64,000 bases of DNA from the NCBI RefSeq assembly GCF_004362895.1, contig NZ_SNXI01000014.1, positions 1 to 64,000 on the forward strand, given 5' to 3'. The DNA comes from Idiomarina aquatica. GTDB lineage: Bacteria; Pseudomonadota; Gammaproteobacteria; Enterobacterales; Alteromonadaceae. Under the pieces are notes generated by a model. The model did not search any database, was not told the DNA's origin, and worked only from the letters and a program-made list of their open reading frames with translations. A program made the position numbers and the translations under genes. This document shows, piece by piece, positions 2,007-25,463 of this stretch (positions within the stretch are counted from its first letter, which is position 1; every line of letters begins with the position of its first letter).

Positions 2007-3128
2007 TTAGTCCGCTTCGATGTGCTTGTCGTGCTCATCGCGCCACTGCCATTCGTTTTCCAGGGTGGCGGTTGGCTGCAGCATCGCAAACTCCAAATCC
2101 TCAATGGTTTCGCCGTCTTTCAAGCGCTTAGGCATATCAGGATTAGCCAACGCTTTCTTGCCCAACGCCAGCAACGCATTGGGATAATGCGCGGCAATAT
2201 GCTCGTAGTTACTTTCGTCGATACCGCCATTAACAATTAACGGGATATCACTAAATTCCTGCACGATTTCCGCTAAGGTCTTGTTGCTGCCGCCTTTAAA
2301 CGGCTTACGGCTAACATCAGTGTCTGTGGTATGAATATAGTCGATGCCGGCTTCTTTCAAGGCCTTGACGATTTTGATCATGGCGTCCTCGCCTTCTGGC
2401 CATTGATAATCGGGGTCAGTCACAGTGATTTGCCCTAACCGAATGCCAACGATAAAGTTTTCACCTTTGGCCGCGTCTTTACAAGCCTTGGCCACCATCG
2501 CCACAAATTTTAACCGGTGGCCAATGTCGCCACCCCACTGATCACCGCGTTGATTAAAGTGTTCGCTTAAAAATTCATTCAACAGATAACCATTTGCCGC
2601 ATGCAGCTCGACACCATCAAAGCCAGCTTCTTCAGCCCGGTTAACAGAGCCGACAAAGCCCTGCATCACCGCATCAAAATCGCTTTCATCCATGGCTTTG
2701 GGGGGTTTCCAACCGTCGCTTTCACCGTATAACGCCAGCGGCTCGCCTTTGGGTTTTACTTCGCTCGGCGCGATCGGCGTATCGGTGTATTCGTTGTGCT
2801 GAAACTGTGCGCCGGCATGCATTAATTGCATAATGAATTTGGCGCCATGCTTGTGCACGCGCTCAACGACTTGCTTCCAGGCATCGGTTTGCGGTGCATC
2901 AGTAATGCCCGGCTGGTTAACATAGCCCTGACTTGCCTGGCGGTCGGTATACACGCCTTCGCTGATAATCAGCGGCCAGCCGCCCTCAGCAAAGCGCGCA
3001 TAATAGTCACCCATCAACTCGGTAGGTTTACCTTTGCTGTCAGCGCTGGTGCGCGTCATCGGTGCCACAACAAAACGGTTATCTAGTTTATGACCTTTTA
3101 ACTCGAAATCATCAAATGCAGAGCTCAT
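2007..3128 (-). CDS. Old-yellow-enzyme family NADH:flavin oxidoreductase (ene-reductase)
   Basis: This 373-residue FMN-dependent TIM-barrel enzyme belongs to the Old Yellow Enzyme family (NemA/XenB relatives), which reduces activated C=C bonds of enals, enones, nitro-esters or nitroaromatics using NAD(P)H. Motifs seen are NRFVVAPMTRTSAD near the N-terminus (FMN phosphate/isoalloxazine side), IMQLMHAGAQ around residue 100, the active-site region GVELHAANGYLLNEFLS around residue 175, and a C-terminal IVNGGID/LGKKALANPD phosphate-binding segment. The length is normal. The gap to elbB is about 35 bp and both are on the minus strand, so co-transcription is possible. The natural substrate cannot be told. 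Confidence 0.88.
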   Translation of the reverse strand: MSSAFDDFELKGHKLDNRFVVAPMTRTSADSKGKPTELMGDYYARFAEGGWPLIISEGVYTDRQASQGYVNQPGITDAPQTDAWKQVVERVHKHGAKFIMQLMHAGAQFQHNEYTDTPIAPSEVKPKGEPLALYGESDGWKPPKAMDESDFDAVMQGFVGSVNRAEEAGFDGVELHAANGYLLNEFLSEHFNQRGDQWGGDIGHRLKFVAMVAKACKDAAKGENFIVGIRLGQITVTDPDYQWPEGEDAMIKIVKALKEAGIDYIHTTDTDVSRKPFKGGSNKTLAEIVQEFSDIPLIVNGGIDESNYEHIAAHYPNALLALGKKALANPDMPKRLKDGETIEDLEFAMLQPTATLENEWQWRDEHDKHIEAD

Positions 3129-3222
3129 TCTTCAATCCTTATACCATCGCTATTGTTATATGCCCATAAGCATAGCTGTTGTGATGGGTTACGCTTAAAT
3201 CAAGCGGTTTTGATCACTTTGC

Positions 3223-4359
3223 TCACTTAATCGCCTGTAAAACCACCGCTGCTTTTTGCTTTCGCCCGCCGTAGCCAAAAGCCTTGTTAAAGGTAGCGAT
3301 TGGTATAGGCAGATACTGTCGCTGGGTCGATGACTCCCAGGGCAAGGTATCGTAATCGGGATCGTTGATATACACGAAATCATCGTCTGCCGCACAAATC
3401 AGCACCCAATGCGGTGCCCGCACACCATCAAACTGATAGGTTGATATCAGTGCCATGACCAACGCGCCATTGGCGAGGTCTTCTTTTAGCAGTTCGAGCG
3501 TGTAATCCCGCACATTAATCGGCACGCCCTGTGCCTGCAAAAAGTTCATGTCCGCGGCCTGAATACGCTGCATAACATCCTTTTTTTGCACTTGCCGAAC
3601 CGACTCAATAAATAGTGGACTATCGGTATTCACCTCGACTCGTGCCGACAACCCACGATTATAAGCCGCCCGGGCCAAACCATGCGGGCCACAGCCTCCA
3701 TGTCCGGAGGTCATGTAAATGGTGGTCGCTTCACGCCAGATTTCTAATTCTTCCGCGGCGGGGTCAGTACTTGGCCGATCAAAATAATCCATAGCCATCA
3801 GCAAGCTAGCCGGGCCACAGGTAAATTCAGTAGTTTGCGTTAACATGGGAACATATTCATCGGTCGCGCCGACACCGCTGTCATCGCCCAATTCGTAACG
3901 CGGCAATAGTTTTTGCATGACCAGTGCGTCGGTCGACTGACCGCTACTGGGCGGATAATAGGCTTCACGCAATTCTATCAAACGAAATCCCTCGCCACGG
4001 AATAGCTGCTCAGCGCGCTGGTTAGATGTGGCCATTTCTGTGCGTAAAAACAAGCAATGGCGTTCATCGGCCAAGTGCTCCGCCCACTGCAAAAGTTTAC
4101 GACCATAACCCATGCCTTGTCTTGAAGGTGCCAACACCAGCGCATACAAGCGGGCAAGATTGGTGCTGTTGCGATACAACAACACAGTGTAACCCTGCAC
4201 ACTTTCGTCAGCATCAACAGCAACGTAAAAGTCAGCGCTGGGCGCATCAATAAAGCGTCGAAAGCTACGCCGGCTAATCGCATCATCAGGAAACGTACCC
4301 TGTTCCAGTGCAACGACCGCGTCGAGGTGCGAAACTTGGGCGGGAATAAAGTTAATCAA
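3223..4359 (-). CDS. GNAT acetyltransferase fused to a C39-like cysteine peptidase
   Basis: This 378-residue fusion has two domains. Residues 1-150 are a GNAT acetyltransferase of RimI type with the acetyl-CoA pyrophosphate loop RQGMGYG at 80-86. Residues about 170-378 are a peptidase C39-like domain with the nucleophile in EFTCGPAS (Cys181), a histidine in APHWVLI (His317) and a following INDPD aspartate (Asp333), so the papain-type triad looks complete. Such two-domain proteins (DUF3335-type) are known in proteobacteria, often near RimK-like ATP-grasp enzymes, but their substrate is not established. No signal peptide is visible, so it is probably cytoplasmic. It is divergent from purM, with 97 bp between them. 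Activity on a protein terminus or a modified peptide is inference. Confidence 0.85.
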   Translation of the reverse strand: MINFIPAQVSHLDAVVALEQGTFPDDAISRRSFRRFIDAPSADFYVAVDADESVQGYTVLLYRNSTNLARLYALVLAPSRQGMGYGRKLLQWAEHLADERHCLFLRTEMATSNQRAEQLFRGEGFRLIELREAYYPPSSGQSTDALVMQKLLPRYELGDDSGVGATDEYVPMLTQTTEFTCGPASLLMAMDYFDRPSTDPAAEELEIWREATTIYMTSGHGGCGPHGLARAAYNRGLSARVEVNTDSPLFIESVRQVQKKDVMQRIQAADMNFLQAQGVPINVRDYTLELLKEDLANGALVMALISTYQFDGVRAPHWVLICAADDDFVYINDPDYDTLPWESSTQRQYLPIPIATFNKAFGYGGRKQKAAVVLQAIK

Positions 4360-4456
4360 GGCACAATCCCTAAAATGAAACAGGTTTTACAGTACCTTTT
4401 TTACCACATTTCGTGCTAAACTTGCGCGCAAATTTTGAGCCTGTTAAGGAATTTTC

Positions 4457-6164: not shown

Positions 6165-6187
6165 GTAGCTTGCGCCTGAGGCGCAAG
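6165..6187 (+). repeat. REP-like palindrome filling the purN / DUF3108 gap
   Basis: GTAG at 6165-6168 is followed by CTTGCGCC, TGA and GGCGCAAG, a perfect 8-bp stem with a 3-nt loop. The element occupies nearly all of the 27 bp between two convergent stop codons; the next base on the right starts the TAA stop of the DUF3108 gene (minus strand). It has the same GTAG-hairpin design as the other copies and may also serve as a bidirectional transcript end. Confidence 0.65.
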
Positions 6188-6892
6188 TTATCTATTCAAT
6201 TTTTCCAACGTCATGGTGGCTTGTTCGTCACCCTCTTTGAATTGCTGCATTTTTACCAGCAGGTAGTCGAGTTCGGGTGCGAACCAAAAATAGGTTTGGC
6301 GCCGGTTGTTTTCGCGTACCCTTTCGACTTTTACCGTATCTAACTGACCGTATGGCGTGCTGATCTGCTCTTCTCCAAGCACCGCAAAGCGGTATTCATC
6401 TGCTTGTCCTTTTTCATCGATAATGTCATACACGTAAGGCGCATTATCGGCTGCCACATCTAAACGTAGTTTTTCAATTACGCTGGCTTCGTCATAAAGC
6501 GCCCCCTGCCAATCGATGTCGATCAACCGCCCGCTATCGACATTCTTTACTTCCTGTTCATCAGCATCAAAACTGGCATGGAAAGATTTATCTGAGCCGG
6601 TGCCCGAACGCATGTATAAAAACTCGATCGGATCAAAACGCTGATGTTCTTCATTATAGGTAAACACCGAGCGGGTCTCGCGAACGTCGGACAAAATAAA
6701 CCAGGAGATATCGGTTTTACCCCGCAGCTGCCATTCACCATTGGGCGAGGTTTCGAGCATCCTGTAGCCTTCACCGTAGTCACTGCCACCACGAGTTACT
6801 TTGTAATGGGCTTCGTACGGAGACAGTTTAACCGGTTCTGCGACAGCGGCGGTTGCAGTAAGCGCTAAAAACATCGTTAACGCTAGTTTCAT
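6188..6892 (-). CDS. DUF3108 domain-containing exported protein
   Basis: This 234-residue protein has a clear N-terminal signal peptide (MKLALTMFLALTATAAVA, likely cleaved before EPVKL), so it is exported to the periplasm. The mature part, with YEAHYKVTRGG, the DISWFILSDVRETRSVF segment and a C-terminal TYFWFAPELDYLLVKMQQ, matches the DUF3108 family, beta-rich exported proteins of unknown function. Members often sit beside purMN in Alteromonadales and Vibrio relatives, as here, in convergent orientation. No catalytic residues can be assigned. The stop codon directly touches a REP-like hairpin shared with purN. No function is assigned. Confidence 0.85.
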   Translation of the reverse strand: MKLALTMFLALTATAAVAEPVKLSPYEAHYKVTRGGSDYGEGYRMLETSPNGEWQLRGKTDISWFILSDVRETRSVFTYNEEHQRFDPIEFLYMRSGTGSDKSFHASFDADEQEVKNVDSGRLIDIDWQGALYDEASVIEKLRLDVAADNAPYVYDIIDEKGQADEYRFAVLGEEQISTPYGQLDTVKVERVRENNRRQTYFWFAPELDYLLVKMQQFKEGDEQATMTLEKLNR

Positions 6893-6911: not shown

Positions 6912-7013
6912 GCGCTCGCGCAAAATGCGCGAGTTACATGCTTGAGAGCGCTCGCGCAAAATGCGCGAGTTACATACTTGAGGGCTCTCGGGCACGATGC
7001 GCGAGTTACATAG
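6912..7013 (-). repeat. Three tandem REP-like palindromes, 36-bp period
   Basis: Three contiguous units begin at 6912, 6948 and 6984. The first two differ by only a couple of bases; the third is diverged. Each holds CTCGCGC/GCGCGAG with an A/T-rich loop followed by TTAC, that is GTAA preceding the hairpin on the minus strand, a variant of the GTAG design seen elsewhere. The array lies between the starts of the divergent DUF3108 and fadE genes, upstream of the fadE operator. There are no unique spacers, so it is not a CRISPR. Confidence 0.75.
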
Positions 7014-20174: not shown

Positions 20175-20196
20175 GTCGCGTCAGGACGCGACCTAC
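20175..20196 (-). repeat. REP-like palindrome with GTAG head
   Basis: On the minus strand GTAG is followed by GTCGCGTC, a 2-nt loop and GACGCGAC. It lies 6 bp after the stop of the EEP-family gene and next to palindrome B. The flank ATGATGTAG and the tail GACACAC match the copy at 21645. Confidence 0.75.
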
Positions 20197-21644: not shown

Positions 21645-21667
21645 TGTCGCGTCAGGGCGCGAACTAC
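21645..21667 (-). repeat. REP-like palindrome overlapping the bkdB stop codon
   Basis: The minus-strand sequence GTAGTTCGCGCC, CT, GACGCGAC has an imperfect stem of about 7 bp. The TAG of its GTAG head (21664-21666) is the bkdB stop codon. It shares flanks with the copy at 20175. Confidence 0.75.
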
Positions 21668-23244
21668 ACCATGTTGACGAGCATGCTGGTGGGGTCTTCG
21701 AGGTATTCCTGCCAGCGTTTGTTAAAGCGGGCTATGGTGCCGCCGTCGATAATACGATGGTCGCCTGACCAGCTTACCGTCATTATCTTACGAGCTACGA
21801 CGTTGCCGTTTTCGTCAAAGCGCGGTAGTTCCTGCACTTTGCCTAAGGCAACAATGGCTGCTTCCGGCTTATTAATGATAGGTGTTGCCACCGTACCGCC
21901 GATAACACCAATGTTCGAAATACTAATAGTACCGCCTTTCATGTCAGCCTGAGGCACTTTCCCTTCTCGAGCTGCTTGAGTCAGACGAGTCACTTCATTG
22001 GCCACATCAATAATACTCTTGTTCTGTACCTGTTTTACGTTAGGCACTAACAAGCCAATTTTGGTATCGACTGCCATGCCGATATTGTGGTCATCAAAGT
22101 AGGTAATTTCAGTGCAGTCTTCGTTCACCTGCGCATTCATTACCGGGAACTCTTTTAGAGCCAGCGACAAAGCTTTAATAAAGAACGGCATGACAGTTAA
22201 GCGTACGCCTTTCTCTTTGTATTGTTCTTTCAGCTTTTCACGCAGCGCAATCAGGTTAGTTAGATCAAATTCATCGGCATAAGTGAAGTGCGGAATAGTG
22301 CTGACAGAGTTCATCATCTGCTTAGCCATAGCCGCTTTGACGCCACGGATAGCTTCGGTGCGTGTGCCGCCGCTAGTACTAGTAGCTGCATTGGCACTGA
22401 CATCTGCGTTATTACTCGAGCCAGAGGCACGAGCTACGTTGTCACCCGACTTGAAGGCTTCAATGTCTTTTTTCAAGACACGACCTTTCTTACCAGAGCC
22501 AGAAACGTCAGCGATATTAATATCATTCTCGCGCGCTAAGCGACGCACTGCAGGGCTGGCAATGGCTTTGCCCTGGCGCGCTTTCGCTGGTGGCTCAGCC
22601 TCTGCCTTTGCAGTTGCCTGCGGCTTAGACTCTGCACTGTTTTGCGAAGCGCTGCCTGAAGCAGTCTCGCCAGAGCCTGAAGCCTGAGCGCCGCCGGCTG
22701 ATTGCAAAGCAAATAACGGCTTATGGACTTCGGCGATATCGCCTTTTTTGTGATACAGCTTAACGACTTTACCGTCATCTTTCGCTGGAATCTCAACCGT
22801 GGCTTTGTCGGTCATCACCTCAACCACGGGTTGGTCTTCTTTCACTTCATCGCCTTCAGCGACCAACCACTCAACGATTTCACACTCAACAATACCTTCG
22901 CCGATATCGGGAAGGATGAAGTCGGTGGTTTCGTTACTCGTGCCAGAGGCACGAGCTACGTCGTCCTCTTTTGGTTCTTCGGTTGCAGCAGCGTCGTTTG
23001 AATCGCCTTCAGCATTAATGCGGAATAACGGCTCGTGGACTTTAGCAATATCGCCTTTTTGGTAATACAGCTTTTCAACCACACCATCGTCTTTCGCCGG
23101 TATCTCAACCATGGCTTTGTCAGTCATGACCTCAACAACGGGCTGATCTTCTTTAACTTCGTCGCCTTCGGCTACCAGCCACTCAACGATTTCGCACTCT
23201 ACGATCCCTTCGCCGATATCGGGCAGAATAAAATCTTTACTCAT
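21664..23244 (-). CDS. bkdB: Branched-chain 2-oxoacid dehydrogenase E2 (dihydrolipoamide acyltransferase), two lipoyl domains
   Basis: This 526-residue E2 core subunit takes acyl groups from E1 on swinging lipoyl-lysines and passes them to CoA. Order: lipoyl domain 1 (residues 1-80, lipoyl Lys43 in MTDKAMVEIPA), linker, lipoyl domain 2 (108-185, Lys147), a long Ala/Ser/Glu linker, the peripheral-subunit-binding domain (about 230-265, ASPAVRRLAREN), a second linker, and the catalytic domain ending SWSGDHRIIDGG (His and Asp). Both linkers contain a REP-like element in frame, at residues 96-104 and 270-278, each encoding VARASG and then SN. Its E1 partners lie upstream; no E3 gene is near. A PDH-type role is the alternative, but the alpha/beta E1 favours branched-chain substrates. 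Confidence 0.9.
   Translation of the reverse strand: MSKDFILPDIGEGIVECEIVEWLVAEGDEVKEDQPVVEVMTDKAMVEIPAKDDGVVEKLYYQKGDIAKVHEPLFRINAEGDSNDAAATEEPKEDDVARASGTSNETTDFILPDIGEGIVECEIVEWLVAEGDEVKEDQPVVEVMTDKATVEIPAKDDGKVVKLYHKKGDIAEVHKPLFALQSAGGAQASGSGETASGSASQNSAESKPQATAKAEAEPPAKARQGKAIASPAVRRLARENDINIADVSGSGKKGRVLKKDIEAFKSGDNVARASGSSNNADVSANAATSTSGGTRTEAIRGVKAAMAKQMMNSVSTIPHFTYADEFDLTNLIALREKLKEQYKEKGVRLTVMPFFIKALSLALKEFPVMNAQVNEDCTEITYFDDHNIGMAVDTKIGLLVPNVKQVQNKSIIDVANEVTRLTQAAREGKVPQADMKGGTISISNIGVIGGTVATPIINKPEAAIVALGKVQELPRFDENGNVVARKIMTVSWSGDHRIIDGGTIARFNKRWQEYLEDPTSMLVNMV
22411..22437 (-). repeat. REP-like palindrome inside bkdB (second linker)
   Basis: On the minus strand GTAG is followed by CTCGTGCC, TCT and GGCTCGAG (one mismatch). 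It is in frame in bkdB and encodes residues 270-278, VARASGSSN, just after the subunit-binding domain. Confidence 0.8.
22933..22959 (-). repeat. REP-like palindrome inside bkdB (first linker)
   Basis: On the minus strand GTAG is followed by CTCGTGCC, TCT and GGCACGAG, a perfect 8-bp stem. It is in frame and encodes residues 96-104, VARASGTSN, between the two lipoyl domains. It differs from the copy at 22411 at only two or three of 27 bases. Confidence 0.82.
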
Positions 23245-23256
23245 GTCGATGGGTCC

Positions 23257-24234
23257 TTAGTAGTTCATTGAGCGTTTGATGGCTTCGTAGATCTTCAAGT
23301 GATCAGCCATGTACTCTTTCTCGTGACACAACGGATATGGCACATCAATACCTGATACGCGCGCGATTGGCGACTCAAGGTATAAGAAGCACTTATCCTG
23401 CACCGTTGCTGCAATCTCGCTAGCAAAGCCGCCGGTAATTGGGGCTTCCTGAGAAATAACCAAACGTCCGGTTTTCAGTACCGACTGAGTGACAGTTTCA
23501 ACGTCCCACGGCAAAATAGTCCGTAAGTCGATCACTTCACAAGACACGCCGTCTTGTTCGGCTTTCTCGACCGCTTTTTCGGTCACTTCCATCTGCGCGC
23601 CCCAGCCCAGTACAGTAATATCCGTACCTTCTTTAACGACGTCAGCTTTGCCTAATGGAATAGTGTATTCTTCTTCAGGAACCTCACCCGTCGATGCACG
23701 ATACAGGCGCTTCGGCTCCATAAATAACACCGGGTTTTTATCAAAAATGGCGCTCAGCAATAGACCCTTAGCTTCGTATGGGTTACGCGGCGTTACAATT
23801 TTCATACCCGGGGTATGAGCAAAATACGCTTCCGGCGACTGCGAGTGATAGTGACCACCGGCGATACCACCGCCGTATGGCGTACGAATGGTTAAACCAC
23901 CTACATCAAACTCGTTGCCTGAGCGGTAACGGAACTTAGCTGATTCGTTAACGATTTGGTCAAACGCCGGGAATATGTAGTCACCAAACTGAATTTCCGC
24001 AACCGCATAGCTACCTTGTGACGCCAGACCGTTAGCAAAGCCAATGATACCCTGTTCAACCAGTGGTGTATTAAAGTTGCGGTGCTTGCCGTATTTCTCG
24101 GTCAAACCAGAAGTTGCACGGAATACGCCGCCAAAGCCACCGGTGTCTTCACCAAAACTGTATACATTGTCGTGTTTGGCCATCGCCAGGTCGAGTGCGC
24201 TGTTGATGGCTTGTAATAAATTCATTTTAGCCAT
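23257..24234 (-). CDS. bkdA2: Branched-chain 2-oxoacid dehydrogenase E1 beta subunit
   Basis: This 325-residue transketolase-like beta subunit pairs with BkdA1 to form the thiamine-diphosphate E1 component that decarboxylates 2-oxoacids from valine, leucine and isoleucine. Seen: [12 protein letters not shown] at the start, [31 protein letters not shown] (with the glutamate that activates thiamine diphosphate), [18 protein letters not shown] and the C-terminal domain with DLRTILPWD. The start ATG overlaps the bkdA1 stop by 1 bp (TAATG) and bkdB follows after 12 bp, so the three form one operon. Confidence 0.93.
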
Positions 24235-25421
24235 TAGTCGATTCTCCCTGACGTTTTCGGATACGCATCCGGATACTTACGGATATGCTCTTTCAACTCT
24301 TCCAATTGCTCTTTCAGCAATGGCGTCGGCTCGTCATATACGTCATTAATCAGTTCATCGATATGTGGCGCAGGTACTTTTTCGGCTTCTTTTAACGCCG
24401 CCAGAACCTTAGCTTTGACTTCTGCATGATGCTCTTCAACATGGTCTTTATCCAACCAGCCTTCATTCATCATCCATTTTTGCAGACGATCAAGCGGATC
24501 TTTTACTTTCCAGTCGTCTTCTTCTTCGCGCGTACGGTAACCCGTTGGATCGTCCGACGTCGAGTGACCCGACATACGATAAGACATGGCTTCAATCAGT
24601 ACCGGCTCGTTTTCTTCTACTGCCAGGCGACGTGCTTCCTGCGTCGCTTTTAGCACGGCAAACACGTCGTTACCGTCGATACGGATGGTTTTCATGCCAT
24701 AGCCAATACCGCGTGGCGCAATGCCGTCACCGCCATACTGCTCGCCTTGCGATGGCGTTGATATGGCGTAACCGTTGTTACGACAGAAGAAAATAACCGG
24801 CACTTTGTAAACCGATGCCATGTTCAGAGCTGCGTGGAAGTCGCCTTCAGAAGCAGCACCTTCGCCAAAATAGCAAATTGTGCACTTGCCGGTTTTATCC
24901 ATCTTCTGCCCGAAGGCATAACCGGTCGCTTGTGGTATTTGTGTACCCAGCGGCGAAGATATGGTCATAAAGTTTAAGTCAGCACAGCCATAGTGAACCG
25001 GCATTTGACGACCTTTACCTAAGTCTTTTTCGTTCGAAAACAGCTGGTTCATGAACTGTTCAACGGTAAAGCCGCGGTACGCCAAGGCACCCTGCTCACG
25101 ATACTGTCCCATGATCATATCGCCGTCATCTAATGCAGCCGCAGAAGCGACACTTTCGGCTTCTTCACCGCGCGAAGCCAGGTAGAAGCTAATACGCCCC
25201 TGACGCTGCGCGGCAATCATGCGCTCGTCCAGCGTACGAATAAACTGCATGGTGTCATGGATTTTTACGATAAGGTCTTTATCGTACTCTGGCATGTCAG
25301 CATTTTTATGGAAGCTACCGTCCTCTTTGAGGATTTGCAGCATCGGAATTGTGACTGATTCACCATCAAACCATTGAGGTTTTGTCACAATCTCTGTGTT
25401 GTGTTTTTTATCCTTGGCCAT
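24234..25421 (-). CDS. bkdA1: Branched-chain 2-oxoacid dehydrogenase E1 alpha subunit
   Basis: This 395-residue alpha subunit carries the thiamine-diphosphate site: the motif [19 protein letters not shown] and the following Asn residues (about 205-235), preceded by [15 protein letters not shown] and followed by [17 protein letters not shown], the phosphorylation-loop-like segment that orders the active site. The N-terminal extension (about 50 residues) is typical of BkdA1 rather than of PdhA. AAGG lies upstream of the ATG. It is first gene of bkdA1-bkdA2-bkdB. The 154-bp upstream gap carries a candidate operator at 25464-25483. Confidence 0.93.
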
Positions 25422-25463
25422 AACCTTCTCTTTCGGTTGTTAGCAGGGTGGAAAATTGCCGCT

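Follow-up and report, generated by a model that had tools for sequence, protein, structure and literature searches.

Translated GTAG-type REP elements in both linkers of a bkdB-like gene of Idiomarina, probably inserted after import of the gene

RESULTS

A bkdB-like gene carries two REP elements in frame

The window, that is the whole stretch of 64,000 nt analysed, carries three successive bkd-like ORFs on its minus strand (Table 1). Genomes are designated here by labels: G000 (2.95 Mb, 63 contigs) is the genome of the window, G004 is I. aquatica, G002 I. piscisalsi, G011 I. zobellii, G008 Idiomarina sp. MD25a and G013 a MAG. In the bkdB product Pfam detected two Biotin_lipoyl stretches (best 4-76), an E3_binding domain (228-262) and an acyltransferase catalytic domain (294-522). 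This domain make-up and gene order designate it as a putative, bkdB-like E2 component of a 2-oxoacid dehydrogenase; no NCBIfam equivalog scored above its cut-off with the protein, and a plasmid search with bkdB found nothing. Downstream of the gene are nested inverted repeats, 21342-21370/21424-21452 (29 nt, 97%) and 21323-21337/21454-21468 (15 nt, 100%).

Table 1. Features of the bkd locus (window coordinates)
Feature	Position	Strand	Remarks
E2 acyltransferase ORF, bkdB-like	21664..23244	minus	526 aa; two lipoyl stretches, E3-binding domain, catalytic domain
REP copy 1	22937..22959	minus	linker following lipoyl domain 1; VARASGTS at residues 96-103; GTAG head, 3-nt loop
REP copy 2	22415..22437	minus	linker joining the E3-binding domain to the catalytic one; VARASGSS at residues 270-277; GTAG head
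Decayed third REP-like element	21646..21667	minus	the TAG stop codon of bkdB is part of its GTAG
bkdA2-like E1 beta ORF	23257..24234	minus	upstream of bkdB; named by gene order and sequence by eye
bkdA1-like E1 alpha ORF	24234..25421	minus	named by gene order and sequence by eye
Putative imported tract	21660..25430 (edges approximate)	none	closest to G002/G003/G011; most flank bins closest to G004

The initial annotation had placed two REP-like elements in frame inside bkdB, and this is borne out by the ORF, its offset and the REP family matches described below. On the minus strand the 27-nt blocks read GTAGCTCGTGCCTCTGGCACGAGTAAC for copy 1 (22933-22959, peptide VARASGTSN) and GTAGCTCGTGCCTCTGGCTCGAGTAAT for copy 2 (22411-22437, peptide VARASGSSN). 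Of the two or three base differences first estimated there are exactly two in 27, and a repeat search of the window grouped the blocks as family D4 (32 nt, 94% identity). Both begin on a codon (offset 0), at residues 96 and 270, the coding strand being the minus strand, and translation of the 526-aa ORF yields the common reading VARASG-[T/S]-SN that had been announced. Since the Pfam domain borders leave them between domains, the blocks sit in two linkers, one after lipoyl domain 1 and one after the subunit-binding domain, as proposed at the outset; the term linker refers here to these borders and to sequence variability. A GTAG head and an 8-bp stem had been attributed to both copies: the head is present in both, but the stem is complete in copy 1 (8 of 8 pairs) and has one broken pair in copy 2 (7 of 8). 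With 10 nt on each side, the RNA of copy 1 folded at -18.8 kcal/mol (z -3.8; none of 200 shuffles as good) and that of copy 2 at -11.3 kcal/mol (z -0.4; 59 of 200 shuffles as good).

A 23-nt REP pattern with up to 3 mismatches matched twice in the window and never in 100 shuffles of it, and across the whole genome it matched 13 places against 0 with a reversed control pattern. Chance resemblance to REPs was ruled out by these two controls. Copy 1 is moreover identical over 23 nt, synonymous positions included, to a repeat located outside bkdB (C2:230851). A degenerate pattern search of the 64-kb window gave 0 matches, and four Rfam matches near bkdB, all below the gathering score and none at either linker REP, were taken as chance.

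The REP family and its association with RAYT genes

Both bkdB copies fit the GTAG type of REP, with a GTAG head, a short palindrome behind it and an overall length of 20-40 bp. A covariance model built from twelve REP sequences, R1, found this family at high copy number in G000: 97 places at E<=1 (at least 84 at E<=0.1 in the genus survey below), many of them arranged as inverted pairs of REPIN/BIME-like type (e.g. C2:108009/108055, C2:195299/195336 and C16:71148/71181). Contig C2, whose 292 kb make up roughly a tenth of the genome, holds 42 of the 97 matches and also a RAYT gene. More REPs of the family or of a sister subfamily occur in the window outside the bkd genes, at 775-796, 6165-6191, 6915-6973 and 20175-20196. 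Eight of the 97 lie in five Pfam-checked genes (bkdB 2, flgJ 2 with an uncertain start codon, metallopeptidase 2, purL 1 and ribF 1); other G000 ORFs holding R1 matches appeared spurious or doubtful, as judged by eye without annotation.

The survey of the genus with R1 covered 19 Idiomarina genomes at E<=0.1, the best candidates (up to 150 per genome) being scored. REP-rich genomes had at least 96 (G004), 96 (G018), 91 (G009), 84 (G000), 66 (G013), 59 (G008) and 19 (G001) matches. Elsewhere in the genus there were at least 3 in G011 and at least 1 in G002, and none among the candidates scored in the remaining 10 genomes.

Y1_Tnp genes were present in 7 of 7 REP-rich and in 4 of 12 other Idiomarina genomes, and two G000 proteins passed the NCBIfam model REP_Tyr_transpos NF047646 with 151 and 139.4 bits (cut-off 80). 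We inspected the flanks of all 14 Y1_Tnp loci for GTAG palindromes. The RAYT genes of G008, G009, G013 and G018, four out of four in this clade, are bordered by GTAGGTCGCGCC..GGCGCGAC palindromes, a member of the R1 family. The RAYT gene on C2 of G000, whose product is 65% identical to that of G009, is bordered by palindromes of a sister subfamily (GTAGGTCGCGTCC.. and GTAGCGTGCGTCC..), and for the one on C13 no GTAG palindrome was seen in the 3.3 kb inspected. G004 has three Y1_Tnp loci, two of which are fragments of 77-aa open frames; one locus is accompanied by a single family REP and two by none. GTAG palindromes of other sequence flank the Y1_Tnp genes of G001, G005, G007, G014 and G015, and such palindromes lie alongside in all four REP-poor genomes with Y1_Tnp. 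The link between family and transposase thus appears good in the G008/G009/G013/G018 clade and indirect in G000; we infer that a RAYT moved the bkdB copies.

Linker REPs of bkdB in G000 and, probably, in two sister species

The bkdB alignment comprised 30 genomes, 19 of them Idiomarina. At these two places the peptide was found in none of the 18 other Idiomarina genomes and in none of the other aligned orthologues. Its presence, encoded by other codons, in more distant E2 proteins, which the initial annotation had named as the observation that speaks for selection on the protein, was not seen in the 30 aligned orthologues, and protein-level conservation of the peptide was rejected on this survey. 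R1 gave no match in 80 named bkdB loci (59 at E<=5 and 21 at E<=1, some from the same genomes); on 110 loci (89 at E<=5, 21 at E<=1) it reported linker matches in G000 and G001 only. Of the expected marks of insertion, absence of the blocks from orthologues was thus observed, but neither a target scar nor a clean empty site was seen among those aligned, because the fast-evolving linkers carry other indels too. Measured between fixed motifs, linker 1 has 49 aa in G000 against 55 in G002, G003, G011 and G017, and linker 2 has 48 against 44. Being 6 residues shorter and 4 residues longer than in these relatives, the linkers point to a deletion or replacement accompanying the REPs, not to clean 27-bp inserts.

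The REP in linker 1 of G001, GTAGCTCGCGCCTCTGACGCAAG (23.2 bits, E 0.031), reads VARASDAS at a place different from that in G000 and by eye resembles a cleaner insertion, some 33 nt long. We then compared the letters of both linkers in 19 genomes with the REP, using 200 codon shuffles for each. Matches of 23/23 and 22/23 in the two G000 linkers, 20/23 in G001 linker 1 and 19/23 in G004 linker 2 were equalled by 0 of 200 shuffles in each case, and all four stretches lie at codon offset 0; for each of the other 34 linkers, 43 or more of the 200 shuffles did as well. The G004 linker 2 stretch comes from this letter-match test alone, R1 having made no report there at E<=5, and lies at offset 66 against 27 in G000. 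Linker 1 of G004 was dropped as a candidate REP site (13/23 letters, equalled by 138 of 200 codon shuffles), and no claim is made for a decayed second REP following copy 2 (22374-22400), which by eye would make linker 2 what was once an inverted pair. On these comparisons G000, G001 and probably G004 each have their own bkdB linker REP, against 0 of 16 others, those of the sister species G001 and G004 being probable decayed elements at other places than in G000.

The bkd genes as a putative imported tract

Identity to other genomes was profiled in 500-bp bins, the flanks being 8-21.5 and 25.5-46 kb of the window (bins at least 60% covered). Between 21.5 and 25.5 kb, identity to G002, G003 and G011 is 91.0-97.8%, with 86.4-90.2% in the two bins that hold most linker sequence, as compared with 62.8-83.8% in flank bins. 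Among 51 flank bins scored for G002 and G004, the closest genome was G004 in 38, G001 in 5, G011 in 5 and G002 in 3. In the bkd tree G000 groups with G002, G003, G011 and G017 (support 100/100) and in the ribF+purL tree with G004 and G001 (support 100/100); the AU test on bkd rejected the grouping G000+G004+G001 with p ~1e-39. The simplest account is that homologous recombination brought in bkdB-bkdA2-bkdA1 from a REP-poor lineage resembling I. piscisalsi. Since the nearest relatives of the tract are the REP-poor I. piscisalsi group, the linker REPs would postdate the import, and the order import first, insertion second is again the simplest one; it would not hold for a donor strain of piscisalsi type, outside the sample, that already bore REPs. 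The place of G001 in the bkd tree also differs from its place in the ribF+purL tree, so that an imported allele may have been struck there too.

The REP-like element at the bkdB stop codon scores weakly with the REP model both in G000 (15 bits, E 1.7) and in G001 (21.3 bits, E 0.076). A similar arrangement is found in G001 by this model match and in G004 by eye only; the I. piscisalsi group lacks it. One edge of the imported tract lies near this element.

Translated REPs in other proteins

The search for REP-encoded peptides in other proteins, suggested by the initial annotation, recovered VARASG/VGRAFG-type examples. In RibF the loop between GVFAV and GVANLGTRPT, compared in 19 genomes, holds in G009 two perfect REPs, inverted relative to each other, and in G018 a single perfect one. 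G008 and G013 have at this place five residues, NVGRA, apparent remnants as judged by eye. Longer inserts are found in G000, G004 and G001: that of G000 contains an R1 match (28.8 bits), that of G004 is similar and that of G001 is a candidate for REP origin only. No such insert was seen by eye in the RibF loops of 12 REP-poor genomes. In G009 and G018 the TGA reported within the RibF match is taken to stem from the aligner overrunning the gene end, the frames being open through the REPs. As read from the sequences, the RibF loop is struck in two clades. The ribF loci of G009, G018, G008 and G013 (L228, L229, L236 and L237) form a graded set, with two perfect REPs at one end and a remnant of five residues at the other.

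PurL, compared in 11 genomes, has inserts in G000, G004 and G001, and VGRAFGTT of G000 corresponds to a perfect REP. A stretch PKPQAQSAS, which resembles the reverse reading LAPKAQAT, is common to the three, and one purL REP overlaps another GTAG. Translated REPs also occur in a reprolysin-like metallopeptidase (G000 and G004), in CheA and FlhF (G004) and in a Wzc-type protein or Wzc-like kinase (G008 and G009); these names derive from Pfam domains and inspection of the sequence, those of the G004 metallopeptidase and the G009 Wzc-type protein from inspection. REPs near the N-terminus of FlgJ in G000 and G004 are probably translated, the start codon being uncertain; four other genomes align from the first residue as well.

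In G004 two adjacent coiled-coil-like ORFs (L308:1125-2369 and 2388-4367) hold 21-residue tandem units such as VARASGTSKELEQIKKERDEA. Each unit opens with 23 nt of REP sequence, intact or almost so, apart from one shorter unit having half a REP, and the 21 residues amount to three heptads. Coiled coil is a reading by eye: Pfam gave one match below cut-off in the first ORF and none in the second. KERDEA-VARA being an ordinary coil-like string, some of the resemblance may predate the REP. Matches to these ORFs exist in G009, G013, G007, G002 and G000.

Reading frame of intragenic REPs

The reading frame was recorded for 27 REPs in 15 of 21 gene entries examined. Sense copies lie at offset 0 in 21 of 22 cases, a count to be taken as descriptive since entries were picked for carrying REPs, doubtful ORFs were omitted and tandem units are non-independent; the exception belongs to another subfamily, in purL. 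Five antisense copies lie at offset 1 (three), offset 0 (one) and offset 2 (one). Sense offset 2 is barred because TAG would be read as a stop, and sense offset 1 would introduce Trp into each of the four consensus strings and Cys into one of them. Omitted as spurious by eye were ORFs in L067, L074, L088, L312, L313, L316, L320 and L321 and the plus-strand ones of L330; these rows include two sense copies at offset 1 (L088) and two at offset 0 (L316).

DISCUSSION

We consider it very likely that GTAG REPs of a RAYT-associated family landed in the coding sequence of bkdB after its import and were kept there in flexible linkers and in one sense frame. The bkd operon would have entered the G000 lineage by homologous recombination from an I. 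piscisalsi-like, REP-poor donor; a RAYT would have mobilised the REP, copies landing in the bkdB coding sequence of this Idiomarina lineage; and these would have been retained owing to the flexibility of the linkers and to a sense frame giving a short peptide of small residues, V-A-R-A-S-G. The proposal of the initial annotation that a normally intergenic repeat became coding sequence twice in one gene is supported by family membership, frame and absence from orthologues, an outside origin being less sure for the second copy. Its further suggestion that insertion is tolerated in flexible linkers agrees with the location of the blocks; near-neutral retention is what we infer.

How the second copy arose admits another course. 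The flanks GAC[GA]AC...TAA[CT] are common to both copies at 8 of 10 bases, so that one insertion may have been followed by local copying, with few flanking bases, into the other bkdB linker. Among the 2850 pairs formed by 76 REPs that score 27 bits or more and have sufficient flank, this level of flank identity was reached by 10, the bkdB pair included, seven of the ten belonging to one CGCGGT-flanked subfamily. However, the linkers are otherwise unlike each other and D/N codons, common in such linkers, inflate chance likeness; local copying seems to us rather unlikely, though a course to be reckoned with. It is improbable that the native bkdB already had linker REPs and that import replaced all but the linkers. 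The REP-like stretch in linker 2 of G004, a close genome-wide relative (19/23, 0 of 200 codon shuffles), and the stop-codon element in G000, G004 and G001 are in line with such a mosaic, but the former stands elsewhere in its linker and was unreported by R1, the likeness in G004 linker 1 is at chance level, the letters just before the G000 linker 1 REP resemble by eye the piscisalsi group, and several crossovers would be needed.

The two remaining explanations concern retention. A role of the REPs as DNA or RNA elements within the gene, as an mRNA hairpin or a supercoiling site, would account for the fold of copy 1, which beats 200 of 200 shuffles; copy 2, with its broken stem, folds at shuffle level, and the bkdB REP-like stretches of G001 and G004 are decayed, which makes this very improbable. 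Hardly credible is selection at the protein level, with VARASG as a functional linker motif and its DNA likeness to REPs incidental. Both copies do share a frame and a kind of site, which speaks for it, but the exact identity of copy 1 with C2:230851 extends to synonymous positions, bkdB of 16 of 18 other Idiomarina is free of such stretches while those of the other two are decayed and elsewhere, and R1 had no match in 80 named loci. Insertion of mobile REPs after import remains our preferred reading.

In-frame intragenic REPs are an already published phenomenon, as PMC3733652 documents. There, Di Nocera et al. (2013) describe GTAG palindromes of 20-40 bp, mostly intergenic, some lying wholly within ORFs and translated, together with double insertions in one gene, TAG stop codons supplied by GTAG, a link to a tyrosine transposase and REPs at about the same recB site in two Xanthomonas. 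The Idiomarina elements resemble these GTAG/CGTC REPs by the GTAG head, in-frame copies, double insertion and stop codon supply; they differ by their carriers (bkdB, ribF, purL and chemotaxis/flagellar genes) and by the graded decay and the import that orders the steps. The main text of PMC3733652 has 0 occurrences of Idiomarina.

An older in-frame case is that of the Rickettsia palindromic elements RPE-1, RPE-4 and RPE-6 (Ogata 2000; Claverie and Ogata 2003; PMC3733652, PMC2759123), likewise palindromic repeats in frame inside protein genes; by the description in PMC3733652, insertions of RPE-1 have a greater length, while RPE-4 and RPE-6 are classed with the CGTC and not the GTAG elements. 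REP/REPIN-RAYT systems share the short palindromes, the pairs in alternating orientation and the link to a tyrosine transposase (PMC3116915, PMC2817692, PMC8266576), but in the available excerpts of these papers REPs are extragenic or general repeats and translated REPs are unmentioned. The literature listed for Idiomarina with REP or RAYT deals with other subjects, and that on intragenic REPs since 2012 leads back to PMC3733652. Within the literature searched, we have not seen described the import-then-insertion history, the repeated strikes on the same linkers and loops, or the REP-cored tandem repeat.

As a tentative extension, which we consider somewhat less likely than not, RAYT-driven REPs may act in REP-rich Idiomarina as a natural linker-insertion mutagen, supplying V-[A/G]-R-A-x-G to the same permissive sites in separate lineages (in three sister species the linkers of bkdB, in two clades the RibF loop of the riboflavin-kinase part) and, in G004, the core of a three-heptad 21-residue repeat, selfish DNA having possibly been turned there into a repeat protein. 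The bkd locus would offer an ordered view of the passage of selfish palindromes to protein, with an allele brought in from a REP-poor lineage now bearing REPs in both linkers and sister species bearing older, decaying versions. In a genus where REP-rich species stand beside REP-free ones, how often and where transposable DNA becomes protein would be a countable and testable matter.
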